Source: Paramacrobiotus metropolitanus
Lineage: Eukaryota > Tardigrada > Eutardigrada > Parachela > Macrobiotidae
Reading direction: 5' to 3'
Assembly (NCBI RefSeq): GCF_019649055.1
Contig: NW_026570266.1
Location: 1-64,000, forward strand
Length of the DNA stretch: 64,000 bases
In this document: positions 1-52,290 of the stretch, one piece after another
Layout of the letters: every line of letters starts with the position of its first letter
How positions within the stretch are numbered: the stretch's first letter is position 1
Notes under the pieces: model-generated
What the model saw: only the letters and a program-made list of their open reading frames with translations
Told to the model about the DNA's origin: nothing
The model's database searches: none
Made by a program: the position numbers and the translations under genes

Positions 1-3000
1 CGGACCTCTGCCCCCCACCGGACCTTCGGACCCTTCCAACAGGCAAAAGCCTCATCAATTTCGGACAAGTCCCAATAGGGATAGTCGACTTCTTGGCTGA
101 AGGGTCAAGCCAGGCTACTTCAAGGCTCAATAGAGCCACCACCGAAGATGTCGGTCGAGAGAACCCATATGAACGGAAGTTCGACCAAGGCTACGCCCGA
201 CGAGACAACGCAGGCGGGTACACCTTCCGCCATGCCGGCCCGGTAGTGAGCCTCACTCGTCGGACTCCAACCGATCGAGTAAGTCCGGCAAGTCGAACCA
301 GTCGACCAAGTCGGCCAGGAGAAGCGGGATGCGCGGATCCTGCGAACGACTTCACCCAATCGCCGGAGGATAGCTTCGAGGACGCCCACGACCGGACGTT
401 CCTCGAGCTACCACAGGCTGACCGGAGGTTCTGCATGACCCAATAGGTCAAACTGCGAACTCCGAGCCTGCGGCTGGACTTGTGCACCCAACAGGTGCCT
501 CGCCAGTCTTCTTCCCGGCCATCACCCCGGACCATGGAGCCGAGCCCGGCGCTAAGTAGCTCCGAGGCGTCACCAGACATGGGTGACCCTGTGCAGCCCC
601 AACAGGGCAGCATGGCTGGACCGAAACCGAGGCAAGGCCAGATGAGCCCAGCCAGATGAAGGGTACGGTATCACCGACCCGGGGGTGACCCACAAGGCGG
701 GTTCACCGACTAAGTCCCCATCGACCCTGGCTCAAAGCCCCAAACCAACGGGCAACAACCGTCTTCGGACAACAGCCGGAAATCGACGTCGCCGGACGAA
801 GCGACCCTCAGGGACTCGAAGGCGACCACACCGGACCGGGGACCTCACCGGGACTCCAACTCGGACTTCGAACTCATCGAAGCCGACCTCGGGACTTCAA
901 ATCTTCAACAGGAAGGTTGCAGTCGGCTGGAACCTCCGGACACCGAGGCTCGGACCCCAACACCGGGGTCGGACTCCGACAACAGGTTGGAACACCCAAG
1001 ACCCGGCCGGCAACCCCACTTCCTCGGCTAAAAAAGCCGTTTCCCCGGTCAAATTCCGTTTCGTCGGTTGCAACCTCCACGGGCGAGGTTGAGGTTCGGT
1101 TACCGAGGTTAACAACCTCGGCTGGCGGACCGTCATCCCCGAAAAAACCCCGGCAGTGAACCTGCTGACCCGAGCCAGCCGGATCGAAGCCTCAAAGGCT
1201 GATCGTAAGTCGAAATCGGCTTCGCCGAAGGTTGCAAAGTCGACCTCGGACCTTCCGGCCACACCCCGATGTTCGAACCCTCGGACCTCGGGGCTGATAA
1301 AACTCCATCACCGACCGACGATGTCTTCGACGCAACCGTGTTACCCAATAAGGTGACCGAGCGTCCGGACAGCAGAAAAGGCTTCAGGTTTCCGTCACCG
1401 AAGCAACCCAGGCTCACACAGGAGCCTCGGACTACACCCCGGCGGTACCTGACAAGACCTCCGGAAGATCGACAACCCACAGGTCCTCCGTCCAGGATTT
1501 ACGAGCTGCAAAACCAGCTCTTGGCCGGACAAAACATCGTCGAATCGACGGAGAATGTTCTGTCCCAGACGGTAGCTTCGCACAAACAGGAGCGCAAGAG
1601 GCTCACTGACGAACTTGAACGTGCGAACACTCATTGATGACCTTACCCAGGAGATCGAACGGTTAGAGGCCCAGTGCAAGTAACTGAGGCCCTGCCGTCA
1701 TGAACAAGCCGAAGTCACTAGACTCCAGGACATGCTGGAGCAGTCTCGGGCCGAAGTGGCCACCCTGCGCCAAGACTTGGAGCAGCGGTTACAGGCCCTC
1801 GGCTACTCGAGGCTGGCTCGGCGGAACTCCACAAGATGTTCGACCGGGTGGATGAGTACCGCGAGGCCATCACCTCAAACAAGCATTATCGGCCTGGAGG
1901 GAGAGATCGACGAACTCAACTCGGAACTCGACTTCCTCCGGACGGCCTATGCGAACCTCCGAGAACCAGAACGACCCGGAGGGTATAGCCGTAGACCTTC
2001 GGCTATGCCAGGCCCAACTTGGCCAGCAGATCCTCGCCCTCACCACATCTCCAGAACGAGACAGCCCGGTTCAGACAGGCTCGTACCGAGAACCTCGCAG
2101 TCATCGAGGCTCAACGAGCCCGGATCACACAGCTTGAGTCGAGAAGACCCAGTGGGAGATGGACAGGACCGTCTCCTGAAGTACCAACAGGAGCTTTACA
2201 ACTTCGGCATCGACCTATCTAAGGTACAACGACCTTGGTGACAAGTACAACCAGATGTACCAGGAACGAGAAAACCTGGGCATCGAGGTTCATGCCTGAA
2301 GGAAGAAGAAGACATACCTCGAGGACTCCATGACCGAGCAACCCCCTACCGGACTACCCAAGAGCAGGATAAATGTCAGCAGATTGATGACTACCTGCGA
2401 CGAGATAACCCCTGCTGAACCCAACAGGTCAAACGGGGGCTCTCGAGAGTCAGACTTATCAGGTCGGAATGCTTAGGGCTGAACCATCGGTTGGACCCGT
2501 ACCGAGGCGCCGGTGGTACCGTCAGCCCCGGAGCCGGAGCGAAACACTTCGACGGCCACCCCCAACGCACCGACCCAGTCATACCACAACGACTACGGCC
2601 TACGGAGGAACATCCACAACGACGATGTTCTCAGCCGGAACAGGCCTGTAGTATCGACTTCAACCGGACAGGACGACTCCCGAGCCTCCGGACCCCCGAG
2701 GCTCCCGACCCCAGGCTCGAACCCCTGAGCCCCGGTAAACGGATCTGGCATGGGACTCCGACCGCCGACAAACGCTTCGGCGGGAGCCTCACAACCTAAT
2801 TCGGGAATTCCAACCGGGACCGACAACGTTCGGGCTCCCAGAACACGTACCCGCCGAGGATCAAGTTCAACCGGTATCGGCAGGGCAGCGCAATTGGGCT
2901 GACCCGGTACGTCCCAGATATCCGAGTAACGCACCACAGCAGCCTCGGCCAGACAACCGTGACCCAATAGGTCTGGTGGGCCCCGGCGCTGTTGGCAATG

Positions 3001-3286
3001 GACCCTGTCAGCCTCGGCAAGGCAATATGGACCCAATAGGTCCGGTGCCCCAGGCTGACCAATATGTGGTTATACCGGGGATGTGGCTGACCACAACAGA
3101 GAGTCCTTCAGAGGATGCCTGGGTATGTGGCCAAACCCCGCCACCGAACCAGGGTATGGGCGCAGAATCCTCCGCCCGGACCTGGACAGCCCCAGCCGGC
3201 ACCCCTGGTAACCCCCACAGCCTCAACCACAGCCGTACCCACCTCAACCCGCCCCGGCTGCGCAGAACCAGCAAGCGGCCTACCCG
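1..3286 (+). pseudogene. Degenerate coiled-coil leader region of giant Ty3-like element
   Basis: This stretch precedes the gag-like frame and has no long intact frame. Three segments read as coiled coil in different + frames: about 1494-1634 (runs of Leu, Glu, Gln and Lys such as QNQLLAGQNIVESTENVL), 1732-1800 (LEQSRAEVATLRQDLEQRL) and 1894-1968 (GEIDELNSELDFLRTAYANL). Frame changes between them suggest one original coiled-coil protein broken by indels, possibly the N-terminal part of a long Gag. Codon and word use (frequent CCTCGG and CCGAGG) matches the rest of the GC-rich element, and several CAATA/CAACA hairpins lie here. The true 5' end and 5' LTR are outside the window. The indels could be decay or uncorrected long-read errors; I cannot tell which. 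Confidence 0.5.
684..707 (+). repeat. Hairpin with ACAAGGC loop
   Basis: The arms GGTGACCC (684-691) and GGGTTCACC (699-707) pair around the loop ACAAGGC, with one bulged T. It belongs to a second constant-loop hairpin family, also seen at 9352-9372 (7-bp stem), about 9282-9297, 12139-12151, 15022-15035 (loop ACAAGGA) and 18459-18477 (perfect 6-bp stem, loop ACAAGGA). Confidence 0.6.
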
Positions 3287-3959
3287 GTGGCTTGGAACCC
3301 TCCGGTAGCCCAACAGGCGATGCCGGCGGTCCAACACCGTCAGACCCCACCACCCGATGAGCAAGACATTGCTCAAGCCCGACAGGAAGGCTATGAAGAA
3401 GGCCGGCGCCGATACGAAGAGCGGAACAACCGGATCTTGGCTCGGAAGAATCGGGCAGAGTTGCCGAAGTTCAACGGCGACGGGGCCAAGGTGGAAGGCT
3501 GGATCACAAAGATCCGGCGAATCTATCGCTCGGAGGCTGACGGCGTCGCAATGACGGACGTAGCCTTTATGACGGAGCTGGAGGGCGCCCTAACTGGACA
3601 AGCCCTGGAATGGTACCAGAACCAGTCAACTCTGGAACCCGAAGAAAACGGATGGACCGTCGACTACTGGCTGCAGCAATTTGCGGCCCGGTTCATGGAC
3701 CGGACAAACAGGTCACGGCAGTCGCGGACATCACTACCAGAAAGTACATGCTGGGGCAAGAGACCCCGAGCAGTACTATGACGCCATCATAAACCTCAAA
3801 CAACGAGGCAACCTCACCGACGAACTGGCGGTCTTCTACCTGCGGACGAACGTCACGGAGCCAATCCTTCGGGCAGCTCTGGACGTCCGGATGCCGAAGA
3901 CGACGCGTGAGTTCCGGGACTATGTGCAGGACTTCACCCGGGACCGATGTATCAGGTAG
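3287..3959 (+). pseudogene. Ty3/gypsy-type gag capsid-like region (frameshifted)
   Basis: The frame at 3287-3781 encodes a Gln/Pro and charged N-terminus followed by a typical retrotransposon Gag core: 'LPKFNGDGAKVEGWITKI', then 'FMTELEGALTGQALEWYQ' and 'WTVDYWLQQFAARF'. The Trp spacing and the 'GxALxWY' motif are those of the Retrotrans_gag family, the structural protein that forms the particle. The frame then shifts, and the rest of the domain continues at about 3740-3959 in another frame ('YYDAIINLKQRGNLTDELAVF', 'FRDYVQDF'), ending at a stop at 3957-3959. So the gag core is recognisable but broken by at least one indel near 3740. A CAACA hairpin lies at its start (3308-3318). Confidence 0.7.
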
Positions 3960-4014
3960 TTAAAGGTGGCAACTCACCAACTACATCACCGTCAGGACGG
4001 CGACTCCCGTTCCT

Positions 4015-5015
4015 GTGACCCAACCGGCTCCCGGATACATCCAACCCAACTCGCCAGGTTACCAGAACGTGCAACCGGGGCTTCACCGACAGAGCCCTCC
4101 GGCGACACCACCACCCAGCCCGTGGTCAAATCGAACAGACTTGGGCGGCAATGGCGGCGATGAACCTGAATGGAGCCCCATGGGACCATGGTCACGCCGC
4201 CAGCCTATGGAAATAGCGGCCAACCGAGTCAGCCTCGGAGCCCCGGCTGCGGCCAATCACAGAGCGGGTTACTCCGGCTATGGCCAGCCCCAACAGGGCT
4301 ACAGCCAGCCTCAGGCCCCGGCTATGGCCAGCCCCAACAGGGCTACGGCCAGAACTCCGGCTACGGCCAACCTCAGAACCAGGGGTATGGCTTCGGAGGC
4401 GGATATGGACGCGGTGGAGCCTCACAATATGGTGGCTCCGGGCGGAAGACGTGGCGGCGGGAATCGCGGCCGCGGAAACTGGCAACCGCGCGGGCAGGCG
4501 GACAGCCCCAGAACGTGCAGCGGCAGCCTCGGACACCACAGCAGGAGGCTCGCCAGGCAACCCCGTCGGATGGAAGCCAAGTTCTTCCAGTGGACCCAGG
4601 ACGGATATTTTCCTGTGGTCACTGCCTATGGGGCAACCACAACCAAGCGAGTTGTGGCTATGCCAACCTCCGGCTGGAAGACAATCCAAACCGGAGATGG
4701 TACCTGGACTGGAGGTACCGGTACGATAACGGATGGCCATTAGGTTCGGCGAATCAGAACTACCCGAACATCGTACCACCCCGCGCCCCGTCAGCAGAAT
4801 GCCGGCGGATTCGGCCAAGGCAGCCAACCGGCAGCCTGGCCAGGGAAATGGAGGAACCCCCAGAATGGTGGTCGACCCCATTGGCAACCGCCACCAGCCC
4901 AACGGCCGCTGCCGCCGTCCCCGGCCCCAATAGGGGCCGGGCGGATACCAACCGGCAGTTGGCGGGCCTGTCAGGTACATCCCAGGAAACGCCTAAGGTC
5001 GATGAGCTCCGGTGA
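4015..5015 (+). pseudogene. Gag nucleocapsid-like region: GYGQ-rich, RGG-rich, CCHC knuckle
   Basis: Across overlapping + frames this encodes a low-complexity stretch of tandem G-Y-G-Q-P-Q-type repeats (about 4280-4420, e.g. GYGQPQQGYGQNSGYGQPQN), then Gly/Arg-rich sequence (about 4430-4500, e.g. GGRRGGGNRGRGNWQPRG). In the frame of 4170-5015 a zinc knuckle CGHCLWGNHNQASC follows (4614-4655), a perfect C-x2-C-x4-H-x4-C. CCHC knuckles are standard in retroelement nucleocapsids and bind RNA. The preceding prion-like and RGG combination resembles FUS/EWS-type low-complexity domains and is not usual in Gag. The GYGQ and RGG parts switch frame, so indels have occurred. Two of the repeats contain CAACA hairpins (4286-4300, 4330-4344), and the best hairpin of all is at 4920-4941. 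Confidence 0.6.
4920..4941 (+). repeat. Strongest AATA-loop hairpin (9-bp perfect stem)
   Basis: CCCGGCCCC (4920-4928), loop AATA, GGGGCCGGG (4933-4941). It lies inside the nucleocapsid-like frame, where it is read as Pro-Asn-Arg-Gly, so no stop is created. Confidence 0.85.
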
Positions 5016-6060
5016 CTCATTCGACCTCTGTCATCCAACGGAACCACCGGATAAGGATAACCCTACTAACCGGATAACCCTTTGGACACAACTCGGAACC
5101 TCAACGAATTTAGCCTCCGCAACGGTCAGCAGAGTCCGCTAGAATCTTAGCGGCGGGGACGGCAACTAGGCGCCGGACATCCCCAGTTCGGATACTCGGA
5201 GAATCGACCCGAACCTCGCCACGCCGAAATGCGGCTCCCGGACCAGAACAGGTACCTGGGAGGATCGGCCGGAACTTGGATCCGATCGGCAGCCGGGACA
5301 CAGAACGTGCCCGGACCCCAGGCCCAGAAGGTGAAGCCGGGGATGTCGGCCGGAGAAACCGGACCCGACCAGCCGGGACGAGAAACGTCACCAGGCTGCC
5401 CGGACGGCTCGGTGCCCAGTGGGCATTACGAGCCACGGGCTAAGCGGAGAATCGGGACGCCGACCCGCAACCTCGCAGGACGTCAGAATGACGCCTGAAC
5501 CGTCCTTGGTAGGCCAACCAGGTAGACGGCCGGAGGCTCCGACCGACGAAGTAACGGAGTACTTCGAAGACTGGGAAGCAGTACCTTTGGAGGCACAGGT
5601 ACCCGCCTACTGTCTGCAGCAGGAAGCGGACCTCTTCCAGCGACAACCGGCACGAACTGTAACCGGATCGCGTTCTTCAACATGCAATACAACCTCTCAA
5701 CCTTACGAGAAGGTCAACCATCCATGGAAGAACGGATAGCAAGCCGGATATACCCGATGGAAACCGCCGAATCGTTGATGGACGGAGTAGCTAACCGTCA
5801 GAGGCGAATCACTCGGTTATGGAAGTTCCATCCGCTACCAGGCTCACAAGCCCCGGCAGAACGACTAAGTCCACCGACCCTCGGTCAACCCACAAGACGG
5901 AGTAGACCTACCGAGGCTGGACAGAATCTCATCACCGCCGCGTGTAGACACCAATAGTGTCCCCGGCGGATCAACGACAACTTTAATTCCGGTCGAAGTG
6001 ACCATCCGAGAAGTAACGATCCAACCGTTACAGTCCACCGGACGACCGAAGGTGGTCGGG
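5016..6060 (+). other. Degenerate gag-pol linker, no intact gene
   Basis: Only short frames are present. The piece at about 5490-5650 ('VTEYFEDWEAVPLEAQVP' and following residues) reads like a linker between Gag and protease, but no family is recognisable. A perfect GACAC-CAATA-GTGTC hairpin lies at 5947-5961. Confidence 0.4.
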
Positions 6061-8990: not shown

Positions 8991-9336
8991 CCCAACTTTG
9001 AGGACTTCAAGGATGAGATCAAAATAAGGTCTCTCCGGGTAACGACACGAAATCAAGGAAAAGAGCCGAAGACATCCGGACCTCATACTCGAGCCCGGAG
9101 GCTGGACGGACGAGGCTAAAATAAGGTCTCTCCGAGCGGCAGCTGAATGGAGGCAGACCACAAATATGCGTCGCCCCGTTCCAAAAGCAACCCGCTGCCT
9201 GGATGTAGGGTCATCTCGGACTGGAACGACTTGTCCATCCCATACGTACGGGTAATCAACGTAGTCGTACCGGACGACCCGGGCTCACAAGGCGAGTCGA
9301 GGGTCGGAACCGCAAAGGTACGGACTACCGAGGTTA

Positions 9337-10986
9337 ATGGACCGGAGGCTCCGGGTTCACAAGGCGAACCCGAGGACGAAGAAGAGAAGCCGATGGAGTC
9401 CAACAAGGAGTTACGCAGACTGCAACTCCGGGACCCTCACCTCCGGAAAGAAGATCGATGAGCTGGAAAACCAGGACCAGCTGGACCATAAGTCCCCATT
9501 GTTGGAACATTACCAGATGAGCGGAGGTCTATTGTACCGGCTGACCACCCACAACACCAAGTTGGAACGACGGTTCGTGGTCCCGCTCTTCATGCGAAAA
9601 GGCATCATCCGAGCACTTCACGACGGAAAAACCGGCAACCACTTCGGCCGCGTGAAGACACTGGAGGCAGCGAAGCTTCGGTACTACTGGGACCGGATGC
9701 TATCCGACATCCATGACTACGTGGATAACTGCCCCCGGTGTACCTTGGTGAACAAGCCTCGGACCAAACCACCCGGTAAACTCCAGAAGATGGAGGTCGG
9801 TGAACCATGGTTCCGAATCTACGCGGACTTTAAAGGACCCCTACCTCGGACTGAGTCGAAAGGATACCAATACATCGCGGTCGTTACCGACCAGTTCACC
9901 AAGTTCACCATAGCCCGAGCGACCAAGACTAACTCGGCAAAGGAGTTCGAAAAGTTCTTCGTGGAGGATGTCGTCTTAAAATACGGCATGCCGACCCACC
10001 TTCACACCGACCAAGGATCCCATTTCACGGCTAAGACCTTCGCCAAAGTGGCCAGGATCTTCGGGATCGAGCATACCTTCGGAACAGCCTACCACCCAGA
10101 GGGTCAAGGCCAAGTCGAACGTTCCATGCAGACGATATGGGATGGAATTCGGAAGGAATGCGACGCCAAGGATGGTCACCGATGGCACCGGAACCTACAG
10201 TACGTAGTATGCGGAATCAACCGAGCCAAACATGCGACCACCGGGTTCTCACCCTACTACATGCTGTACGGACGTGAGATGACCATACCCCAGGACGTCA
10301 TCACCGGAACCAACGCACCGGAACACTACACCGACAAGGAACAATACATCAGAAGGATGAAGGAACGGCTCCAGAGGGCTCACGACATCGCGAAGACGAA
10401 CATCGACGAAGCCTTCCAGAAAGCAGCCGAACTCTACAATAAGAAGAAATCCGTACCGGACTTCCAGAAGAGGGACCTCGTCCTGGTAGAGTATCCCAAT
10501 AAGGATCCTACCAGGAAGGAACGGTACGATGGAGTATGGACGGTACTCAACTATAAAGGACCCAACAACCTTTGGCTCCGCAACGTCGAAACCGGAAAGG
10601 AAGATGTTGTCGCCGTGGATAGATGTAAGCATCATCCAAGCAACAAGCGTCGGCGGATTACCCGATCGTACAGCCAGAAGAAAGCCGAGGTAACCCCGGG
10701 TAACAACCTTGCAACGGTGCCGTACCCCCATGTGGGTCAGCCCGCTCGCAATACCCGGGCCCGAAAGGCTAACTCAGCCGAAGATAAGCCGAAGGAACCG
10801 GCAAAGGAGCCTCAGAAACCGGACTTAACGTCGGTTCAGGACCCCAATAAGGGTCCGTCCGACAAACTAAGTCCGAGGAACCTCCCAAACCCAAGGAAAA
10901 CGTGGCCGACCGAGGAAGAAGCCTCCGTCGGACTTCGAGACACCAGCCCTGCAGGAATTGCAGAAGCAGGCTGTGATAGAGGATGA
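9337..10986 (+). CDS. Ty3/gypsy integrase (intact HHCC + DD35E + GPY/F)
   Basis: The 549-codon frame carries a full integrase from about residue 40; the first ~40 codons look like out-of-frame shadow of the preceding frame, which shifts near 9450. Numbering from 9337, the zinc-binding H95-x6-H102-x29-C132-x2-C135 is intact. The catalytic triad is D164 (YADFKGPL), D225 (HTDQGSHF) and E261 (GQGQVERS), giving exactly D-x35-E. After the core comes a GPY/F-like module ('YDGVWTVLNYKGPNNLWLRN'), which in this family helps chromatin or DNA binding. The C-terminus is rich in Lys, Pro and Arg. The enzyme would process and join LTR ends to host DNA. It is the only pol domain without lesions here, in contrast to the broken RT upstream. 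Confidence 0.9.
   Translation: MDRRLRVHKANPRTKKRSRWSPTRSYADCNSGTLTSGKKIDELENQDQLDHKSPLLEHYQMSGGLLYRLTTHNTKLERRFVVPLFMRKGIIRALHDGKTGNHFGRVKTLEAAKLRYYWDRMLSDIHDYVDNCPRCTLVNKPRTKPPGKLQKMEVGEPWFRIYADFKGPLPRTESKGYQYIAVVTDQFTKFTIARATKTNSAKEFEKFFVEDVVLKYGMPTHLHTDQGSHFTAKTFAKVARIFGIEHTFGTAYHPEGQGQVERSMQTIWDGIRKECDAKDGHRWHRNLQYVVCGINRAKHATTGFSPYYMLYGREMTIPQDVITGTNAPEHYTDKEQYIRRMKERLQRAHDIAKTNIDEAFQKAAELYNKKKSVPDFQKRDLVLVEYPNKDPTRKERYDGVWTVLNYKGPNNLWLRNVETGKEDVVAVDRCKHHPSNKRRRITRSYSQKKAEVTPGNNLATVPYPHVGQPARNTRARKANSAEDKPKEPAKEPQKPDLTSVQDPNKGPSDKLSPRNLPNPRKTWPTEEEASVGLRDTSPAGIAEAGCDRG
9352..9372 (+). repeat. Hairpin with ACAAGGC loop, 7-bp perfect stem
   Basis: CGGGTTC (9352-9358), loop ACAAGGC, GAACCCG (9366-9372). 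It is the best member of the second constant-loop family. A weaker one with a different stem (GGCTC/GAGTC) lies about 70 bp upstream at 9282-9297. Confidence 0.7.
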
Positions 10987-11404: not shown

Positions 11405-11578
11405 GGCCATAGTTAACCTAGAATAAGTTAGGGCTTAGCTAGGACATAGTTAAGAATGGACCTTTGGTGTCGGAATGGGACCTCTTCAGTTGTGCATGGA
11501 ATCTTCAGTTGAACTTATTTGGCCTTATCAGAATGCTAACGAGCCGTATCTCCTTTATCCCAATAGCCTCTCATAACG
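11405..11578 (+). other. Spacer between pol and the accessory ORF block
   Basis: This AT-richer spacer contains two copies of 'tcttcagttg' (about 11,486 and 11,511) and repeated 'tagttaa/gttagg' words. A degraded loop motif (CCCAATAGCC) is at about 11,559-11,568. No gene is seen. It may hold an internal promoter or leader for the next ORF; the sequence does not decide this. Confidence 0.4.
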
Positions 11579-13288: not shown

Positions 13289-13341
13289 AGGCCCAGATAG
13301 AAGAGGCTCGAGACGAACACCCTCTGGCACCCCCGAGAACG

Positions 13342-15177: not shown

Positions 15178-15224
15178 CCCTTAACGAAGGCTATATCCGG
15201 GACTTAGCCGCTCAGGTTAACCAG

Positions 15225-18843: not shown

Positions 18844-20845
18844 TGGAGAAGCTCACCGAAGAATACCGGGTAGAGCGAGGCCATTTCCTTACCGCACAAT
18901 TCATGCGGAAGATAGTCAGCTGGATCCAGGATGAATGTATGGCCTTTATACTCCATCGATCCTGGGACCGAATGGGCGAACTGGTACTCCCGAAACCACC
19001 GGCTAAGTTAAGCCAGAAGGAAACACCGGAACAGCGGATAGTCAGAGCCATCGGCTACTATCGGAACCCAAGAGGTACCACCCGCCTCCAGATTGCCCGG
19101 TTCCTCAACAAGATGTACACCTACGGCGATAAACCGATAGGCGAGGCCGAGATCGAAGATATCATGAGGGAAGTAAACCCTACCCTCGAGAAGATGGTGC
19201 TACGAAGGGAGCTGCAGACTACTAACGCGCAGCGCAGAGTCCACCTTCGGTATACCGTACCGAACTTCATCCCCGAAAAGAACCGGAGGAACAGAAGCTT
19301 CGGATGTCGTACCTCCACACAAAGAAGTATAGCCCAGAAGGAGCCGAGGTCCAGATCAGACCAGAGGAAGACCCTGCACCTCAAGCCAAAGTATGGTTGG
19401 AGCTGGCCAGATCAACGGCAGCCTCCTCAGGTAGCAGATTTCCTCCAGAACGACCAAGAGCCCCGGGCGGCTTGCAAAGGTCCGCCTCAGCCGACCAAGA
19501 CTCCGGCAGTAAACCCATTAAGCATTCGGCTCGAGACAGAAGGGGTAAATTTGTCAAGGACACACATTCAGCCCCTCCGGGATCCCAACCCCCGTCACCC
19601 ATGGACTTGTCGACTTCGCAGGCTGGAACCTCAACAAGGGGCCAGTCCTTGACTAAGAAGCGCAAGAACAAGGGTAGGACTTCGCGGAATGCTCAGTCCC
19701 TCGAGGAGGAAGAAGAACCCTCTTCGGAGGATGATGACGACAAGGACGCCAAGTCAGACCAAGACTCTGACAAATCCGACGACTCGGACGGCGACGACGA
19801 CGATAACGAAGATGGTAAGGGGCAGCCGCCAACAGCGGCACCCGAGCATCCGGAGCCAGAGGATGAGCCTGACAATCAGGAACAACCTCCGGCAGATGAC
19901 CCGGACGATCCGATGGAAGATGCGGGATCGACGGTCCCATCCGGACAACAAGCCTCGGGCTTTTTCGACCAAAGGACCCCGAGCCCTCCGGCCGACCAGC
20001 TACTTATGAAGTGGCATGAAGACACAGCGCAAGTCCTGCCTCGGGAGATCCCATCGAAGCCCATCATTCGGCTTCCCCGGCCAAAACAGCCGGCAACCAT
20101 GCGGGCATCCAGACCGAAGCCTCGGATCTCCGACACCGACCCTGGATGGGTGCATGTTCACGCTGCACTCAAGTCGCTGTCATGGTCGGGCCCAACCTAC
20201 GCAACCCCGGAGTTGGCTTACCAGCTGCTGAAGCATTGGCGCGTCGACAAGGACGGAAGCTGGTTCGACCTTAGCCTCGACAGAGTGAAGATCTACTGTC
20301 GGATGGCATACGAGACTGGTGCCATCCTTCGGGTATATACCAAAACGGAACGACCGTACTACGTCTTTCCGAGGGAAGAACAAGACCCAGCGCCGAAGAC
20401 TTACCTCGGATGGCGGGACGCAGTGATCGCCTGCCTGCGGACGGATCGACACCCGGAAGGATTAACTCGCCGGGAGATTTTGAACCACCTAATAGGTCGG
20501 TTCGAGTTCATACTGATGTCCGCTTACCCTCAACTGGAAGATGCACGGTACCGACCGGTCCGAAGAAAGGAAACCAACCTGTACTACCTGGCCGATGAGC
20601 TGGAGTATGTCCTCGAGCAAGCCTGCCGACAGAAAGTCCTCGGATCGAGTGAGGTTTACAAGACCCACGGGCAGCGTTTCTCCGTCTTCTACCTACCTGA
20701 AGACTTCGGACAGCACCTGCCGAAGACGCGGGCAAGCTCGGCGAGCCCACCGAAGGCTCCCACCTCGGCCGAAACGGAAGCCCAGAAGCGGTTGGCACGG
20801 GCCAAGTCAACTAACCCGGCTGACCTGCCGAAGAAGAAAAGCTAA
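18843..20845 (+). CDS. Accessory ORF 6: three winged-helix (linker-histone-like) modules around an acidic region
   Basis: Two overlapping frames (18843-19652, then 19304-20845, shifting near 19,300) give one protein. Module 1 (about 19,035-19,260) reads 'RIVRAIGYYRNPRGTTRLQI', a second helix, then 'LEKMVLRRELQ' and a beta wing 'RVHLRYTVP', the order of a histone H1/H5-type winged helix. Modules 2 (about 20,149-20,370, 'VHAALKSLSWSGPTYATPEL' ... 'YYVFP') and 3 (about 20,411-20,695, 'WRDAVIACLRTDRHPEGLTR' ... 'FSVFYLPE') follow the same pattern. Between modules 1 and 2 is a long acidic run of Asp, Glu and Ser (about 19,700-19,915). The ORF ends in a Lys-rich tail. A nucleic-acid- or chromatin-binding role is inferred from the fold pattern only. 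Confidence 0.5.
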
Positions 20846-21085
20846 ACGGAAGTACATCATCGGAGGTTCCTTGCCCAATAGGCGAGACCTATAACCTCCG
20901 TAACGGGGATGTTTCTCTTGCCCAATAGGCGAGAAGGGAAAGGATCGGACAAGACCTGACCGTACCCGACCGTTTAAGCTTACATCTAACCATAGAACGT
21001 TTAACCCAATAGGTTTACGTAATGACCCAAAAGGTTTAAAAACAAAAATAACTTAACAATATTAAGTTAAGTGTTTTGACCATAG
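20846..21085 (+). other. Hairpin-rich intercistronic spacer
   Basis: This 240-bp spacer holds four CAATA hairpins: 20870-20886 (CTTGCC/GGCGAG), 20916-20934 (TCTTGCC/GGCGAGA), 21003-21015 (AACC/GGTT) and 21049-21069 (TAACTTAA/TTAAGTTA). The last keeps the loop with an AT-only stem, the best evidence that the loop rather than the GC-rich stem is conserved. Confidence 0.75.
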
Positions 21086-23395
21086 CCTTCTCAGCCCCGA
21101 ACGGAAGCCTACGACTCGGATTGCCAGGCGTGCAAGGCCAATAACAACTCTCCTCGGACACGCCAACCCTGCGCGGAATGCCTGTTATGGCACTTGGACA
21201 GACAAGCCGGGGATCATAGAGTCACACGACGGGACCAGGCCAATGCCCTGTACGTCCAGGTCGTCACCGGGAACTTGAGTGCCTACATGCACGCCGTCCA
21301 TAACAGCCGCATCCTTGATGAGTTGGACGGTCGACAACTGCTCTACATGTGGGACATGCAGCGCTACCGCAGACGTACCCACGAGCCCGGCTGGGATAAC
21401 ACCCCAGCAGTCCCGGACAACGCCCGATTGGTCCATGCCCGTGAACAACGACGGGAGCAGGAGCGCGAGGATGACCGCCGAGAAATAGAGGCAGCCGACC
21501 GACGGATCGCTAAGGCCCAGCGTGAGCACGAAAAACGGACACGCCCGAAGGAGAACAAGAATCCCATCTTAGGCGTAGCCGGCGACTTACAGGCTAGGCT
21601 CATGGCGGAACCCAAAAGGTTCCCGGATGAGCCCTCAGCACCTCTTAATATGGACGTGCTGAATCCGGATCGGACCCTAAAAACGTCCAGCCTCCAGGAT
21701 GCGTTCCAGGTCGGCCCCGCCCCACTTACCGGGTTGACGGTAACACTCACCGGACCTGACGGCCGACAATATATGGCCCAAATCCTTGACCCCCAACAAA
21801 CGGAGGCTCTGCCGGCAATTCAGCGGAGCCAGGTAGAACAGCAGCTGGTAGCCCCACAAGAAGGTGGCTTACCCCAGCAAATGGACAGCGCACCCTTGCA
21901 GCCCCCGGCCCAACCAGTGGTTCGATCGGCAGAACCACCAGCGACGGCAGCAGTGACCCCAACAGGGTCCACTCCGTCTAACCGCAGAACCCAGAGTGTG
22001 TCGGACTTGGCACCCGGTGACCTGCGCCATAGGCTCGGAAGGGACCTACGACACAAGCTGGAGGCTCAACATAGGCCGGATGAACAGCCTTCGAAGGATC
22101 GGACCCGACCCTCCCCCGGCAAGCGATCCGGTTCGGAGGATACCGGGCTCGTCGTGGACTCCAACAGCAAGTCCCGGCGTAACTTCACGCAGCCTGTGGC
22201 CCGACACCAGACGGCTCGACACCCAGCCCTGCGACCACCCCCACCTTTGGAACAGCTGGACGAGCTGCCAGTGCAACAGCGTCCATTACCAGACCCGGAA
22301 CCGGTAGTGCCTAGCCAGCATGACCCTCGGTACGACCATGCACGCCGACAGGGCATCGCAGTGGAGATACCACACCCGACGGAACGGACGAACTACATCA
22401 TGGGCACTATGCAGTACCGGGAGGATCGACGAAACCAGATCTGGCACTTGGTCAATGACCTTCGGATCTTCCTCGACCACTCTGGATACCAACAGATGTT
22501 CGAACATCGGCAATGGTCCGAGGACTTCGAGATGAATGATCGGCTGTCCTATGGCATCGGATTCCCATACTACCGGACGAACGGTTTGCCTAGCACAACC
22601 GACCCAGCGACTTTGGGATTGCCACTTGACCACCTGGATTGGTCTCAACTGAGCCAGCTCCCGTTGTTCTCTTCGGAACGGGAGATCACGGACCATACGG
22701 AATGGGTGGCGCAGTTCGTACTCACCGAGGCACAAGCAGCCATGGTGATCACTGCAGCCAGAGCGGCCCAGGGTTTGCCCGAATACCTTGGCAACATCGA
22801 ACCCAGAAGCCCGGGAGATGCTCCGTTGGCCTTCCAGACAGCTTTGCGACTGATCTTCGCGGCCCGACTTGGCCACCATCACAGCCACTACACCCTGTAC
22901 TGCGCGTACCGGAATAACAACATTCCGCCCCGACTTCGGACGGCGGTGGCCCAGCTGAGCGCGCCGATGCGAGACACAGTGGTGGGATTATGGCTGCGTG
23001 ACTTCTTGATGACGGCAGAGCGATGGTACAAGGAATATCAGTACCATCCGGACGAAGAAAAGGATGTCGACGAAGCCTCGACCCTCTCGGAATGGTGCCG
23101 GACCCATCGCCACTTGCCGCCCGGGTTCACATCACCACCGATGCCCGAGGGCAAGTCATCCTACAGGTACAACATGTGGCCAGGTTCATCATCCTCGGGC
23201 AGGAACCGCCGAAGACGCGAAGCCCGCCGAACCAAAGCCGAAAAGCCCGGACAGGAAGCTTCAGAATCGCAGTCGACCTGTACCCAGGAGGCTACATCCT
23301 CGAACCACCCAGGCCGACGGGAACGGGATAAGGATGATGACTCGGAAGGTTCCCACTTCGGTGGTGGAGCCCCGGTCAACGTGGACTTGGAATAA
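21086..23395 (+). CDS. Accessory ORF 7: zinc-ribbon-like start, coiled coil, unknown globular domain
   Basis: The frame is open from 21,086 (after a TAG at 21,083-21,085) to the stop at 23,393-23,395, but has no ATG before the first conserved segment. That segment reads CQACKANNNSPRTRQPCAEC at 21,122-21,181, i.e. C-x2-C-x12-C-x2-C followed by a His: a possible zinc-binding module. Then come a charged coiled coil (about 21,430-21,540, 'AREQRREQEREDDRREIEAA'), a Pro/Gln-rich linker and a globular domain of about 250 residues (about 22,320-23,130) with aromatic clusters ('IWHLVNDLRIFLDHSGYQQM'). The tail is basic, then acidic. I recognise no family. The start codon is uncertain; a non-ATG start, recoding or splicing are all possible. 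A perfect GACCC-CAACA-GGGTC hairpin is at 21955-21969. Confidence 0.55.
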   Translation, partial: PSQPRTEAYDSDCQACKANNNSPRTRQPCAECLLWHLDRQAGDHRVTRRDQANALYVQVVTGNLSAYMHAVHNSRILDELDGRQLLYMWDMQRYRRRTHEPGWDNTPAVPDNARLVHAREQRREQEREDDRREIEAADRRIAKAQREHEKRTRPKENKNPILGVAGDLQARLMAEPKRFPDEPSAPLNMDVLNPDRTLKTSSLQDAFQVGPAPLTGLTVTLTGPDGRQYMAQILDPQQTEALPAIQRSQVEQQLVAPQEGGLPQQMDSAPLQPPAQPVVRSAEPPATAAVTPTGSTPSNRRTQSVSDLAPGDLRHRLGRDLRHKLEAQHRPDEQPSKDRTRPSPGKRSGSEDTGLVVDSNSKSRRNFTQPVARHQTARHPALRPPPPLEQLDELPVQQRPLPDPEPVVPSQHDPRYDHARRQGIAVEIPHPTERTNYIMGTMQYREDRRNQIWHLVNDLRIFLDHSGYQQMFEHRQWSEDFEMNDRLSYGIGFPYYRTNGLPSTTDPATLGLPLDHLDWSQLSQLPLFSSEREITDHTEWVAQFVLTEAQAAMVITAARAAQGLPEYLGNIEPRSPGDAPLAFQTALRLIFAARLGHHHSHYTLYCAYRNNNIPPRLRTAVAQLSAPMRDTVVGLWLRDFLMTAERWYKEYQYHPDEEKDVDEASTLSEWCRTHRHLPPGFTSPPMPEGKSSYRYNMWPGSSSSGRNRRRREARRTKAEKPGQEASESQSTCTQEATSSNHPGRRERDKDDDSEGSHFGGGAPVNVDLE

Positions 23396-23893
23396 AAGAG
23401 ACCGGTAGCTGGACCCCAATAGGGTTAGGCTAACCGTAAAACCGGTCAAATGGACATGACGACGTCTCCAATAGAGACGTATCCCATAGATGGAACCTAG
23501 CTTGTGGAGCCACAGATCGTTGGCCAACCACCTTACAGTTCGTCAAACCACATCTGCTACCAGGCCGCACCCTCAATAAGGGACACGGTCCAAGGGCAGT
23601 GCAGATCGCATTAACCACGATTAGCTACCTAAACCGGACCCTCAACAAGGGATACGGCGGTAGACCTGACCTTGTATTACGTCCAAACGGCCCGGAGCAT
23701 ACCTTTCACCGAGCCAATCTTCATTACCCTGCAGATCATAGCCTTAACCATGATCTTATCCTCCTGCAGATCGCAGTCCTAACCACATCTGCTACCATTA
23801 AGAAGTTACAGAGTCAGCCACAAGTACGGCTGTCCGTGGTGATCTCAGCGAGGAAGGCAACCTGCAGACTGCACCTAACCACGACTGACTAAC
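23396..23893 (+). other. 3' non-coding region, first part
   Basis: No coding frame is convincing. It contains CAATA/CAACA hairpins at 23413-23425, 23462-23480 (perfect 7-bp stem ACGTCTC/GAGACGT), 23570-23582 and 23639-23651, and repeated phrases 'ctgcagatc' and 'taaccac'. This begins about 4.5 kb of apparently structured non-coding sequence. Confidence 0.6.
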
Positions 23894-24250
23894 CTGTCTT
23901 TCGATCCGAGCAGATTGCTCGATACCTCACCGGACCCTAAAGGCTCCGGGGTATGAGGCCCAATAGGCCTCCATCTGCGGAAGGATCCAGACTTCGGCAT
24001 CATATAGGAACTTCCGTTCCTATATCTTACATAGCTCCAATCCATTGCTGAACAACGGCAGCGGAAGCAGAATGCGAACCTTCTTCGATCCGAGCAGATT
24101 GCTCGATACCTCACCGGACCCTAAAGGCTCCGGGGTATGAGGCCCAATAGGCCTCCACCTGTGGATGAACATTCTAAGTTCCGTCCCTCCGACGCGGGGA
24201 GCGATATCACCCACATCGCGGGAACGGAAATACCTCGGATCGAAAGACAG
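23894..24250 (+). repeat. Structured module: duplicated three-hairpin unit bounded by a 17-bp inverted repeat
   Basis: The block opens with CTGTCTTTCGATCCGAG (23894-23910) and closes with its exact reverse complement (24234-24250). Inside, a ~74-bp unit occurs twice as a near-identical direct repeat (about 23900-23973 and 24084-24157). Each unit holds three hairpins in a row: CGAGCA-GAT-TGCTCG, CCGGACCC-TAAA-GGCTCCGG (one C-C mismatch) and GAGGCC-CAATA-GGCCTC. Between the copies is a fourth, ATATAGGAAC-TTCC-GTTCCTATAT (24002-24025). As RNA this would fold into a closed multi-branched domain. Confidence 0.8.
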
Positions 24251-24479
24251 AGTCCAAAAGAAGTGGACCTAACCGGACTTCACCTCACGAAAGGCCCAAC
24301 AACTACCTTGTGAACCCAATAGGTTCCAGGGAAGGTGCCCAATAGGCCGCCAGAAGTTAGCGGAGCCTGATCCCCTGCGGACGACCAAGGCAGAAACTCA
24401 GACCTCGTCGTCAGTAGAGGAGACCGAACCGGCAACCCTCGGACTACCGTAGTTCTGGAAGAGAAGCCTCCTAAACCAC

Positions 24480-25870
24480 GTTAGTCCGGACCTTCGCACG
24501 AAAGGCGGTTTCTCCGCGCAGATCAGCATGACCTGCTGTTCTGCACGGATAATCCACTCCGGCAGAAGACTCTGGAATCGAACCTCGGATGGATCCCTCG
24601 GATAGACCCGATAAGTACGAGTTCAACCTGAACCGTACCGGACGTCTCCCCAGGTTTCCCTGGATGAACCGGACGGAATGTTCCGGTCTCCGGCGACAAT
24701 GACAGGAGGCGAACCGAGCCAAATAGCGAGGTTAGCCGACCCCCGACGGTTAGCTGGCTCCAGCTGGATCAGCGACTCCGCCGACCTGCTATCCCCGGAG
24801 CTAAAAGGGAACATCATAGGGCGTGGTAGAATCCCGACCCACCATTGACTTAGGGAGTAGACCCCAATAGGGATACCCCGATGTCCGACCCTCTGATTAG
24901 AAGGGTCGAACCCGAAGAAAACCTCAGTTCACCGGGATAAATCGCACGAATAGCGGCTGGCTAGCGGCGAACTGTGACAACACAGTTCATCTCGTCAGCC
25001 CCTCCGGCAGAAGGATCCTGGAGGCTGACCCTGATAAAAGTGTGAACCATGGAACGTCACATCGGGACGAATCGTACGAATAGCGACTGGACAAGCACAA
25101 CTGCGCACAACACAGTTGTCCCTGTTCAGGTCCCTCCGACAGAGGACCCCCGGCTGATCAGTTCCGTAACTTGGACTGCAGAGCCCAATAGGCTCTTACC
25201 CTTGAACCTTACTAGCCGGGACCTCGCGGACATAGGCAGCGAAAACGTCCTATATCAGCAAGGCCCTGGTGACAGCCCCAGTATCGGACCCTTCGCACGT
25301 AAGGAGGTCGGACAGAAGTTCCCAGCATGATCTGCCGGGTACTCCTGCTCGCACCCAGCCGGTAGAAGGACCCGGTGGAACTACGGTTCCATAACTCCGA
25401 ACCTTCGAGCCCAATAGGCTCCTATTCTTCAACCGAATGCGGACCGTGTGGTACAGGAAGCCATAATCCCTGACAACCCGATCCGCACGACTCGAACCCT
25501 TAACGGAGTACGGATTACGCCGACCTAGGACGAAATACTCCCTCGGTCAGCGAACCCGTATGACTAATTTCCGGAACCTAATCCAAGAGGATTCCGCTAA
25601 CATGTTCCCGAAGAAACTACTGCCATCTTCAGCAACGTGTTTGCCAACAGACCCATGGACACCCCGGGAATCGGAGTAATAGCTGACTGACCTCCACTTG
25701 AAGTCAGCACGAGAGCCCAATAGGCCTCGGCAGCATAACTCCGGCGGAATCCGTCGTACGAAAAGCGACGGGACGGTGCTGCGCGGCGCGATCCGCTTCG
25801 CTCCACCGGCCTGTCCCTCCGGCAGAAGGACCATCGGAGGATGCAAGCCTTCGCAGATCGCGTACAACCA
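24480..25870 (+). repeat. Array of about five diverged hairpin modules (CGCACGAA and GGCAGAAGGA loops)
   Basis: Five diverged units share two landmarks. The first is a small hairpin with loop-like CGCACGAA or CGTACGAA (near 24,494, 24,943, 25,067, 25,291 and 25,753); stems vary, for example CCTT/AAGG and CCGTCG/CGACGG. The second is GGCAGAAGGA or close to it (24,561, 25,006, 25,135, 25,361, 25,821), usually enclosed by a variable stem. The best is 24994-25029, with stem GTCAGCC(C)CTCC against GGAGGCTGAC. Between the landmarks there is often another stem, such as GAACTGTG-ACAA-CACAGTTC (24,968-24,987). CAATA hairpins are interspersed. No protein is encoded. Confidence 0.55.
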
Positions 25871-27135
25871 CGACCTGTTACCATGTCAAGTGGCGCAGAT
25901 CAACCACGATCTCTACCTTACCGTGGATGCCCATCGAGGCCCAATAGGCCTCCCTTCCACCCCGGAACGGAACGGAAGAAGTGGGACATTAGGGCACACT
26001 CATGCCCTTACCCCTACGCACAACGCTGTGTTGGAGTAATGGTATGAGTGACCGGCATGACCATTTCACCGTGAATCGGACTGTGGTCACCGGAAGGATG
26101 TACCAGGACATTAGGGTACACGGGTGAATGCGTATATACAACATCAGTATATAATCATTCCTCCGCGTCCGACATGACTGAACCCCCAACGGAGGCTACG
26201 GACGTCCATAACTACGCCAACAGGCCCAATAGGCCTTTAGCCCCATATTCCGGCATCCCGGGTGTTTCCGCCTAAGTGGAAGCACGGGATCAGCCGAGGA
26301 ACGGACCAGCTTGGACTCCGTCTTTAAAACTTAGAGTGCCTACCTCGCAGCTTTGACCCAATTAGGTCTTATATAGCTGTCGGGGAGCCTCTTTTGCATG
26401 ATTTTTGCTAGTCACCCGGTGGACATCTCCAGCATCAAGCGGACTCCCACCAGAGCATGTTGGGCCAGTCTCGTTACCGAGGTTCGGACCCCCGGACACC
26501 GAGGCTAATTGACCCTCGGATACTTGTTCGGACCCTGTCCAGAGGCACTGACCCTCTCCATGTTACCCAATAGGTGACGGGAGACGTTAAAAGGGTTTTG
26601 CCCGGGCAGAATGCCTTTGGACCAGCCTTAGCGGATGCTGACTACCTCACCACCGAGGCTACCCCGGACACGGAGGCTGCCCCGGATAGCGACTTCATCT
26701 CACCGGTAAGACCCTCGGTAGAGTTGCCCAATAGGCGACCTACACCGTTAATAAGGGTTCTTGCCGAGATGAAACGACCATCAGACCTTCGGATACCGAG
26801 GCTCGAACCTCCGACCCTCGGACCCTTCGAACCCCGGCGATCATCCTCTCCGAGTTACCCAATAGGTGACAGGAGACGAATTTAGGATTTTCAGCCGAGC
26901 GGAACATCACCGTATCCATTTGCCAGCGCAGCCGAGGGTACAACCCGGACTCTAACTCGAGTACCGAGGCTGCCAATGGACTTAGACTCAGCAACCGAGG
27001 CTGAGCTTGGACTCTGATTTCACAACCGGAGCTGACCCTCGGTTACCGAGGCTACCATCGGACTTCAAAACCTTGAAGCCAACCGGATACAGGGTCGGAC
27101 TCCCGTACAGAGGCCATATCATCATGCGGACCAGA
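25871..27135 (+). other. 3' non-coding region with many CAATA hairpins
   Basis: No gene is seen. Hairpins with constant CAATA loops lie at 25936-25952, 26222-26236, 26562-26578, 26723-26739 and 26854-26870, and a CAATTA one at 26355-26368. The words 'accgaggct' and 'cctcgga' recur throughout, also in the first 1.5 kb of the window. Confidence 0.5.
26441..26470 (+). repeat. Copy 1 of a ~30-bp direct repeat containing TGTTGGGCCAGTC
   Basis: GGACTCCCACCAGAG is followed by CATGTTGGGCCAGTC. A near-identical copy (GGACTCCCGCCCAGAGG, then CATGTTGGGCCAGTC) is at 28089-28120. The TGTTGGG word is a plausible LTR start, so one copy may mark an LTR edge. Confidence 0.5.
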
Positions 27136-27172
27136 ACGTGGTTTACACTGCACAGTGCAGTGTAAACCACGT
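27136..27172. repeat. 37-bp near-perfect palindrome
   Basis: Two 18-base arms (ACGTGGTTTACACTGCAC at 27136-27153 and its exact reverse complement at 27155-27172) flank one central A. It is the longest perfect short palindrome noticed in the GC-rich element and has no CAATA loop, so it is a different kind of site. Confidence 0.9.
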
Positions 27173-27819
27173 CCATCGACCACTCGACCCTATGGAGACC
27201 AGGCATTAACCGGTCCTTGTTGCCCAATAGCCGACAGGACACAATATTACGGTTTTGCCCGGATGGAACTTCGGATCACCGGACTCTTCCGGAGGATCCA
27301 CCGATCAATAGACCCAATAGGTCTTATCCTGCACCCAGAGAGGGTACCTTACGGTATTCGCGGATGCGACAGTGCCTCTCCATCAACCTTACCCGATGAA
27401 CCTCGGCTGGACGTAAGTACGAGCTATCTTACCCGGCAACGGAGGTTCAAGCAACTTTACCGGAGGATCCCGGTCGGAAAGTGTGTTTCACGCCCGTTTC
27501 ACACCCGACAATGGAGATCCATACCTTACCCGAAGTTGATAGGGTCGAACCTTTGACCCTCGAGGTCGAACCCCGACCCTCGGTGAAATGAACCGGTACC
27601 ACTTGGTATCCCGAGAACCGATGCCTCGGACCTAGATGGCCGGATATCCTGTGGACTGGAGCCCCCGTGAGCGGATCAGCTCTAGTCGGAATGAGCACCC
27701 GGACCAAAGCCCCGGACCAAAGACTTTGAGTTTACTTTTTCTAATCTCGAAATGATGTTCTCAATTTTATTGATCTTTTCACTAACCTGCTCACCAGGAA
27801 TTGTGATGTTATTTTTACT

Positions 27820-27834
27820 AGAGAGAGAGAGAAA
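27820..27834 (+). promoter_or_regulatory. Candidate polypurine tract
   Basis: An uninterrupted 15-nt purine run (A, five GA units and further purines) follows a T-rich stretch (27,811-27,817) and precedes TGGAATAATA. LTR retroelements prime plus-strand DNA from such a tract just before the 3' LTR. The surrounding AT-rich island (27,730-27,870) stands out from the GC-rich body. Confidence 0.4.
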
Positions 27835-28531
27835 TGGAATAATACTTTATTTTTTTTACTTTTCGCCGTTACGGACACGACCAACAGATGCCTACACCGG
27901 TCCAACAATACCACCGACCGACCTTCGGATTTCGGCCGTGAGTTGTATCGCCACCACGGGTCCGGAGGAGAACGCGGCACCGAGAGACCTTCGTCATCGG
28001 ATACCCCGAGGCGCAGCCACCGACCCCAATAGGGTCGTGTGCGGAGCGGGCACTGGAGCGGTACGAGGCCGGTCCTTCGCAGGGGCTCGGACTCCCGCCC
28101 AGAGGCATGTTGGGCCAGTCGCTATGGCAGCCTACGAGTAGGCAGCCAGCGACAGTCCCGCTTCCGGTGTGCTGACTCACACCGAGTCGCACTCGCTGTC
28201 GAGCGCTAGATCGGCCTCGACTCAGGCAGCTTTCCGCCCAGCCTTTCGTCTCGGCCAATCATCGGCCTCGATGTAGGCGGAGCCACGCCTCCTTTCCACA
28301 TCTCGGCCTATCAGCGTTCGTTCGCTCGTGTTGGATCTGCCCAGTGCCGCATTAGGCTTTTTCCCATGTTATGGCTCGATGTGCCATTCATTTTCATTCA
28401 TTAGCTGACATTCGGTGATTTACACTCTACAGCTCACATCGAGCCTTTGTGTTTTGGTTCTCTGTACTTTATTGCTATCCACAATAAAGCCTCTTCTCAC
28501 TATCGTGAGCCTTTGTTCGCCTGCTGTCACA
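27835..28531 (+). repeat. Candidate 3' LTR (boundaries uncertain)
   Basis: If the purine tract is the PPT, the LTR starts TGGAATAATA at 27835. Alternatively it starts at the TGTTGGGCCAG at 28108. The downstream half looks like U3/R/U5: an AATAAA signal at 28483-28488 within 'ccacaataaagcctc', a repeated 'gagcctttgt' on either side (28441 and 28508), and an end near '..ctgctgtcaca' (28531) where the sequence turns AT-rich. The 5' LTR is not in the window, so the pair cannot be compared. A CAATA hairpin (28021-28037, 6-bp stem) lies inside. Confidence 0.4.
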
Positions 28532-52288: not shown

Positions 52289-52290
52289 TA

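Follow-up and report, generated by a model that had tools for sequence, protein, structure and literature searches.

Dispersed sense-strand hairpins with a family-specific loop, putative RNA recognition sites, in a giant Ty3-type retrotransposon of the tardigrade Paramacrobiotus metropolitanus

We analysed the first 64 kb of a contig (NW_026570266.1; referred to here as the window) from the 170-Mb genome of the tardigrade Paramacrobiotus metropolitanus. The first 28,531 bases are taken up by a giant Ty3-type long terminal repeat (LTR) retrotransposon, here called family A, the sense strand of which carries 39 small hairpins with a nearly fixed five-base loop, mostly CAATA or CAACA, on stems of differing sequence. 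That these hairpins are repeated RNA recognition sites, as a first-pass annotation of the letters alone had proposed, is well supported by the sequence comparisons described below, while the packaging role suggested at the same time is plausible.

Because the contig begins within the element, the window copy is truncated at its 5' end; a complete family-A copy of about 31.3 kb with both LTRs is present at C73:261849-293135. Its LTR pair (423 aligned bases, 98.6% identical) has TG...CA ends and is flanked on both sides by CTCG, ends and flanks having been read by eye. Direct TG...CA LTRs with a short target duplication place this copy with the Ty3/gypsy elements, and so, in our assessment, does an H2C2/rve integrase downstream of reverse transcriptase/RNase H, the matches to the latter (8121-8591) being weak, under the Pfam cut-off and located in short frames of the window copy. 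Neither a tRNA primer site nor a polypurine tract was obvious by eye at the LTR edges of the C73 copy. The window copy has the following features (ORF, open reading frame; aa, amino acids).

1..28531, +, giant Ty3-type LTR retrotransposon (family A); 3' end common to the copies; in the C73 copy the 5' LTR precedes the base matching window base 1
4170..5015, +, Gag-like frame with GYGQ repeats, an RGG-type stretch and a CX2CX4HX4C zinc knuckle (CGHCLWGNHNQASC); frame read by eye
9265..10986, +, integrase ORF with zinc-binding H2C2 domain and rve core (Pfam PF17921, 1.4e-17; PF00665, 9.6e-15)
11567..20845, +, six extra ORFs downstream of pol, of 573, 408, 605, 779, 313 and 539 aa
11720..21085, +, 9,366-base GT-AG intron, missing from L020; junction read by eye, joined reading frame
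21086..23395, +, ORF7, 769 aa, 3' of the intron
28108..28531, +, 3' LTR, TGTTGGG...TGTCACA, by LTR comparison

Both the gag and the pol frames are short in the window copy; in other copies with an integrase at least 97% identical, open frames around the integrase reach up to 1907 aa. A database search with the window integrase ORF gave as its best match a P. metropolitanus protein of 97% identity. The Gag-like frame gave no match in a Pfam search, and its GYGQ repeats and RGG-type stretch, next to the zinc knuckle, resemble FUS-type low-complexity proteins. The extra ORFs after pol matched no Pfam family above the cut-off, protein searches with ORF7 and the 539-aa ORF gave nothing at E 0.001 or better (8000 candidates scored for each), and neither of the two matched a PDB sequence up to E=1. 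Judged by eye, two of the extra ORFs might hold winged-helix domains. An Rfam search of the whole window at the gathering threshold returned 0 matches and a tRNA search none.

The intron has the edges CACAG|GTAACA ... CATAG|CC and is missing from one of the other copies, L020, in which the reading frame continues from the ATG-containing ORF at 11567 into ORF7; the junction region lies at L020:850-930, with a small indel beside it. L020 most likely arose by retrocopying of a spliced message, which suggests that spliced element RNA can be reverse transcribed and integrated. Since L020 retains the exonic 3' hairpins, RNAs bearing the hairpins would be reverse transcribed. Introns were also considered for the rearranged copies L014, L015, L019, L021, L022, L023 and L026; their best breakpoints did not combine GT with AG, and they were treated as deletions.

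The hairpins were catalogued by one rule, a CAA[CTA]A (CAAHA) loop on a stem of at least 4 pairs with G.U allowed, and the 30 with at least 5 pairs are called stronger. Each is given below with the evidence in brackets (scan, loop/stem scan; alignment, comparison with other copies or with the diverged subfamily L017/L020).

436..450, +, CAATA hairpin (scan, folding)
484..498, +, CAACA hairpin (scan, folding)
596..608, +, CAACA hairpin, 4 pairs (scan)
2961..2973, +, CAATA hairpin, 4 pairs (scan)
3028..3044, +, CAATA hairpin (scan, folding)
4286..4300, +, CAACA hairpin within the gag Gly-Tyr-Gln repeat (scan, folding)
4330..4344, +, CAACA hairpin, second unit of the gag Gly-Tyr-Gln peptide repeat (scan, folding)
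5947..5961, +, CAATA hairpin (scan, folding)
11927..11939, +, CAATA hairpin, 4 pairs including one G.U (scan)
12036..12052, +, CAATA hairpin (scan, folding)
15359..15375, +, CAAAA hairpin, closing pair G-C (scan, folding)
15495..15511, +, CAACA hairpin (scan, folding)
16301..16313, +, CAACA hairpin, 4 pairs (scan)
18420..18434, +, CAAAA hairpin (scan, folding)
19825..19839, +, CAACA hairpin (scan, folding)
20870..20886, +, CAATA hairpin close to the intron 3' end (scan, folding, subfamily alignment)
20916..20934, +, CAATA hairpin close to the intron 3' end (scan, folding, subfamily alignment)
21003..21015, +, CAATA hairpin, 4 pairs, close to the intron 3' end (scan, subfamily alignment)
21024..21036, +, CAAAA hairpin, weak: 4 pairs, one G.U (scan)
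21049..21069, +, CAATA hairpin, 8-pair AT-only stem, folding probability 0.21; lost in L017 (scan, folding, alignment)
21607..21623, +, CAAAA hairpin in ORF7; some copies have CAATA or CAACA as the loop (scan, copy alignments)
21955..21969, +, CAACA hairpin in ORF7, retained in L017 and L020 (scan, alignment)
22788..22800, +, CAACA, 4 pairs including two G.U, probably chance (scan)
23412..23426, +, CAATA hairpin (scan, subfamily alignment)
23462..23480, +, CAATA hairpin, 7-pair stem, ACGTCTC in the window, ACATCCC in L017 and ACGGCCC in L020, all fully paired (copy alignments)
23570..23582, +, CAATA hairpin, 4 pairs (scan, subfamily alignment)
23639..23651, +, CAACA hairpin, 4 pairs (scan, subfamily alignment)
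23955..23971, +, CAATA hairpin sharing an 82-base, 98% identical duplication with 24139..24155 (repeat and loop/stem scan)
24139..24155, +, CAATA hairpin, duplicate of 23955..23971 (repeat and loop/stem scan)
24312..24326, +, CAATA hairpin (scan, subfamily alignment)
25180..25196, +, CAATA hairpin (scan, subfamily alignment)
25407..25421, +, CAATA hairpin (scan, subfamily alignment)
25936..25952, +, CAATA hairpin (scan, subfamily alignment)
26222..26236, +, CAATA hairpin, L017 and L020 without an aligned counterpart (scan, alignment)
26561..26579, +, CAATA hairpin, four stem pairs different in L017 and L020 with pairing kept (subfamily alignment)
26723..26739, +, CAATA hairpin (scan, subfamily alignment)
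26854..26870, +, CAATA hairpin (scan, subfamily alignment)
27310..27324, +, CAATA hairpin (scan, subfamily alignment)
28021..28037, +, CAATA hairpin, last upstream of the 3' LTR (scan, subfamily alignment)

The densest cluster of the element, five hairpins in 200 bases (20870-21069), lies directly upstream of the intron acceptor site. The first-pass annotation had placed the set at 70..28037; the end is correct, the last hairpin stopping 70 bases upstream of the 3' LTR, but no hairpin satisfies the rule between 70 and 436. The 5' leader, read in the C73 copy (L041) up to the base matching window base 1, likewise lacks five-pair CAANA hairpins.

On the sense strand of 1-28107, 39 of the 154 CAAHA sites sit on a stem of at least 4 pairs, which agrees with the first-pass count of about 40, and 30 on one of at least 5; none of the 25 antisense sites does, in line with the claim that all loops are on the + strand. 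Outside the element the window has such hairpins at 1 of 179 sites (+) and 5 of 156 (-), and a reversed-loop control within the element gave 1 in 129. With at least 5 Watson-Crick pairs, 20 CAAYA hairpins are found on the + strand and 0 on the - strand, against a mean of 0.045 (maximum 2) in 200 local dinucleotide shuffles and a mean of 0.73 (maximum 4) in 1000 rounds in which the right arms were permuted among the 124 CAAYA sites. Synonymous-codon shuffles of 8 ORFs (500 rounds) gave a mean of 0.13 (maximum 2) where 7 CAAHA hairpins are observed, two of them sharing one gag peptide repeat, and the set has thus withstood the shuffled and codon-matched controls that were proposed with it. Total hairpin numbers exceed those of shuffles outside the element too (69 tetraloop hairpins in 28540-64000; shuffles, mean 43.1, maximum 63), and since non-element stretches also do so, the total was discarded as evidence and the loop-specific excess alone was used. 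CAATA (15 of 58 sites, 0.12 expected) and CAACA (5 of 66, 0.14 expected) head the five-base loops, followed by CAAAA (2 of 30) and AGATT (2 of 12). The first-pass search pattern had CAAYA; at 5 Watson-Crick pairs the fourth base is T in 15, C in 5, A in 2 and G in 0 hairpins.

When folded with RNAfold in about 200 bases of context, 29 of the 30 stronger hairpins have a pairing probability above 0.5 (mean 0.95), compared with 39 of 133 other-loop hairpins with at least 5 pairs (mean 0.30). The AT-only stem singled out by the first-pass annotation does exist as an 8-pair stem at 21049..21069, but it folds poorly and is absent from the covariance-model matches described below. In a stem comparison of 26 of the 30 stronger hairpins (alignment A2, rows selected for pairing), C-G prevails beside the loop, as the closing pair in 24 of 26 and as the next pair in 21 of 26, and other Watson-Crick pairs are also present.

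Twenty further loci of the element were compared with the window copy, and all 20 carry sense-strand CAATA hairpins; antisense ones are confined to L028, where the sequence is inverted, and a single CAAAA is antisense in L026. For the 14 hairpins of the 3' non-coding part, divergence from the window copy is 1.9% and 2.5% in the two arms and 14.9% and 9.4% in the three bases flanking them, so that the arms change about five times less than the adjoining bases; within the loops the first three bases differ at 2.2%, the fourth at 5.3% and the fifth at 0.8%. In the rest of the element (16 hairpins) the arms differ at 2.1% and 3.4% and the fourth loop base at 15.8%. Stemless CAAHA sites show no dip in conservation.

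Stem changes could be followed in the diverged subfamily L017/L020, which is 72-73% identical in DNA to the window copy in the longest alignments. Here 28 of 156 stem cells have changed and 24 of the 28 are still paired, 14 by changes on both sides and 10 by one-sided changes to or from G.U; among the one-sided changes a standard pair is kept in 10 of 13. The 34 control hairpins, which have other loops, show changes in 101 of 201 cells, and 29 of the 101 are still paired (Fisher 9e-8), gapped cells having been skipped in both sets (12 in the hairpins, 74 in the controls). There is also turnover, several L017/L020 hairpins having no counterpart in the window and vice versa. These data support the view that the hairpins are under purifying selection, with compensatory change in the diverged subfamily.

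The 150 integrase copies that were scored, out of 1202 candidates, comprise 26 of family A (at least 88% identity), 72 of a sister family B (74-84%) and 52 of a sister family C (69-73%). The B or C element read holds homologues of four of the six extra family-A ORFs, with 28-47% identity. A covariance model of the family-A hairpins gave 80 matches up to E=0.2 in nine sources, training hairpins included, all on the sense strand of family A, and 0 matches up to E=1 in the B and C loci L042-L045; beyond E=0.2 there were a few weaker matches, including one at window position 58416 (-) and one in L041. The sister families have loops of their own. In family C it is the tetraloop CAAC, with 9 hairpins of 5 pairs at 104 sites (score 10.7; best of 60 shuffles, 3.2), and in family B it is ACAMA, with ACAAA at 5 of 27 sites and ACACA as well (score 8.2; best of 60 shuffles, 4.2), whereas in three non-element sets no loop beats its shuffles. 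Within the element, the CAAC hairpins of C and the ACANA hairpins of B with at least 4 Watson-Crick pairs are sense-strand ones; past the family-B 3' LTR edge there are a weak ACACA at L045:3691 and an antisense ACAGA at L045:4285. As in family A, the stronger hairpins of B and C end upstream of the stretch matching the family-A 3' LTR edge, so that in all three families looked at the hairpins end shortly upstream of the 3' LTR. The family-B loop rule may be looser than a fixed motif; further A-rich loops occur, and ACA is contained in 25 of the 45 six-pair hairpins of this family (5.3 expected). In family B (L042, L045) hairpins with 4-, 5- and 6-base loops outnumber those of shuffles by a factor of about two to three, many having ACA in the loop, and in family C the CAAC hairpins at L044:1395-1640 sit in short, near-identical direct repeats.

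Genome-wide, fixed patterns found CAATA hairpins at 329 places (reversed control 42), ACAMA at 1136 (196) and CAAC at 121 (53), and a place was associated with a scored integrase when it lay within 22 kb on the same strand. For families A, B and C in turn, the integrases with CAATA hairpins nearby number 8 of 8, 0 of 34 and 0 of 24 (first 100 of the 329 places), those with ACAMA hairpins 0 of 3, 4 of 5 and 1 of 3 (first 100 of the 1136 places), and those with CAAC hairpins 0 of 11, 0 of 38 and 18 of 25 (41 of the 121 places, the perfectly paired ones of 62 given with letters, 38 more being given without). The exceptional C integrase with ACAMA hairpins, C3:3427173, contains stop codons and could be a degenerate B copy. 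The strand agrees with that of the nearest integrase at 45 of 45 CAATA, 58 of 59 ACAMA and 28 of 29 CAAC places listed, 55, 41 and 12 places respectively having no scored integrase inside 22 kb. Taken over the places listed, these counts support the view that loop type follows integrase clade. Five clusters of B-type hairpins include a scored integrase; they extend over about 27-33 kb, to both sides of it. Two same-strand CAATA clusters, C23:889329-916760 and C29:1290323-1304402, have no scored integrase near and possibly belong to another CAATA family.

It is the combination of sense-only occurrence, a fixed loop, stems that differ and yet are paired in the diverged subfamily, conservation among copies and other loops in the sister families that supports the reading as repeated RNA recognition sites. 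With moderate confidence we propose that they are dispersed, family-specific recognition hairpins, read by a probably element-encoded protein that selects and condenses the element RNA. The sense RNA would carry the hairpins along its length, and the protein would recognise the five-base CAAYA loop on any stable stem of about 5-7 pairs, the stem sequence being free as long as it is paired. The reader would most likely be encoded by the element and evolve together with it. Gag, with its zinc knuckle and RGG-type stretch, would be the first candidate, and the extra ORFs the next. Many copies bound along the 31-kb RNA could then allow an element to pick out its own RNA among those of its relatives and to condense it into a particle. 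A further and more tentative proposal is that the loops form an RNA identity code, each sister family having switched its loop set in step with the reader, at least twice in one genome, and thereby picking out no RNA but its own. Kissing-loop dimerisation was dropped by reasoning, as CAAYA is not self-complementary.

Several observations weigh against this proposal. The hairpins do occur in gag, in ORF7 and in 3' non-coding sequence, as the claim of coding and non-coding occurrence has it, but the pol stretch 6300-11500 holds none of the 30 stronger ones (5.6 expected under uniformity, P 0.004), and they are thus unevenly spread. In the coding part the three flanking bases differ at 4.8% and 3.5%, with 8-11% further out, so that the edge of conservation is blurrier. 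The expectation that stems in other copies change with compensation is borne out in the diverged subfamily, where 4 of 28 changed cells break the pair, although these are not 28 events, because L017 and L020 are related. It fails among the close copies, in which 18 of the 29 changed cells (of 1254) are no longer paired and pairing survives no better than in control hairpins (both-sided changes 6/6 vs 11/14, one-sided 5/23 vs 12/44); the evidence among close copies is one of conservation rather than compensation. The detail on families B and C comes from one element each (L042 and L045; L043 and L044), with 27.5 kb read, the post-integrase part and the 3' end. No loop reader was found in the element sequence; no RNA-binding fold was identified in the extra ORFs, the AlphaFold2 model of ORF7 being unusable (mean pLDDT 34.7). 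Retroviral Gag zinc knuckles usually prefer a G in the loop, and CAAYA loops have none. Finally, the hairpins do not set the unspliced genome apart, because spliced RNA, as judged from L020, is also reverse transcribed.

The alternative that survives best, although we consider it unlikely, is that a host RNA-binding protein reads the hairpins, for nuclear export, stability, localisation or translation, and that the three loops reflect one host preference. The loops of families A, B and C are indeed all A/C-rich with CAA, ACA or AAC cores, the 3' non-coding sequence, which the spliced RNA retains as well, holds 14 of the 30 stronger hairpins, and no recogniser was found in the element. However, the loops of A do not overlap with those of B and C among the places listed, which would be unexpected for one shared reader; with different loops in families that occupy the same nucleus, an element-encoded reader is likelier than a single host protein. 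It is considerably less probable that the hairpins regulate splicing of the 9.4-kb intron and so hold back a fraction of the RNA from splicing, to serve as gag-pol message and genome. The GT-AG intron does exist, and five hairpins fall within its final 216 bases; 22 of the 30 stronger ones, however, are outside it, including the 14 in 3' non-coding sequence. We regard as very improbable that the hairpins are mobile or duplicated palindromes spread by copying, as double-hairpin elements and REP repeats are; there are a few local duplicates (23955/24139; 26544/26836/27201) and the stem GACC/GGTC is seen again in family B, but copying would bring the stem sequence along, and instead the loop is fixed, the stems differ and orthologous stems change on both sides together. 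Just as improbable are palindromic protein sites acting as DNA in the integrated copy or cDNA, for although sequence does not distinguish RNA from single plus-strand DNA, the sites are on one strand only and the 10 of 13 one-sided changes in L017/L020 that keep a standard pair require G.U on one side.

The rest of the window contains genes of non-LTR retrotransposons at 50217-59006 (-), with reverse transcriptases and an endonuclease (57070-58437), diverged repeats at 29-52 kb, and two nested inverted repeats at 54495-55204, 95-97% complementary and about 0.7 kb altogether.

In the open-access literature on retrotransposon hairpins, giant LTR elements and the elements of this host, we found no precedent for dispersed hairpins with a conserved loop, and the statement of the first-pass annotation that no LTR retrotransposon had been described with such a set stands to that extent; the portion of a tardigrade transposon curation study drawn on here does not mention Paramacrobiotus (PMC11071193). 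In yeast Ty3, according to the part of the source consulted, nt 429-4979 are dispensable for retrotransposition with the proteins supplied in trans, retrosome localisation and packaging depended on UTR (untranslated region) or POL sequences, and Ty1/Ty3 RNA must be selected from an excess of cellular RNA (PMC4974528). Because packaging depended on UTR or POL sequences, internal signals are conceivable in Ty3, an element of the same class; unlike in family A, which has sites along its internal region, none is described as a hairpin set in that part of the source. Burro of planarians, which is gypsy-like, and Ogre of plants are LTR retrotransposons with extra coding capacity that reach sizes of up to 25-30 kb; Burro encodes one huge polyprotein with recognisable domains, whereas the extra coding part of family A consists of several ORFs that match no Pfam family above the cut-off, and dispersed hairpins are not described in the portion of the paper used (PMC6431247). 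The dispersed packaging signals of single-stranded RNA viruses such as MS2 are, in the part of the review cited, many stem-loops with a shared motif and otherwise varied sequence (PMC6281560).

By analogy, these dispersed viral signals are the nearest working model for family A. Several stem-loops with a common loop motif are likewise set, although unevenly, over one genome-length RNA, and their stems vary with pairing kept in the diverged subfamily, though not among close copies. The differences are that family A is an LTR retrotransposon with an RNA of about 31 kb, that its five-base loop is fixed, that no common bulge was seen in the folds and that Gag is a candidate reader. They are not placed like a retroviral 5' packaging signal, which is in the leader between LTR and gag, nor do they, a few local duplicates excepted, share stem sequence among copies as mobile palindromic repeats do. 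If the proposed reading is true, dispersed packaging signals would reach from small RNA viruses to LTR retrotransposons, and would come with natural specificity variants, for which MS2 and PP7 are a comparable pair. With a 31-kb element showing its candidate sites in plain view and three loop types in one genome, the reader could be sought by a simple cross-binding test.

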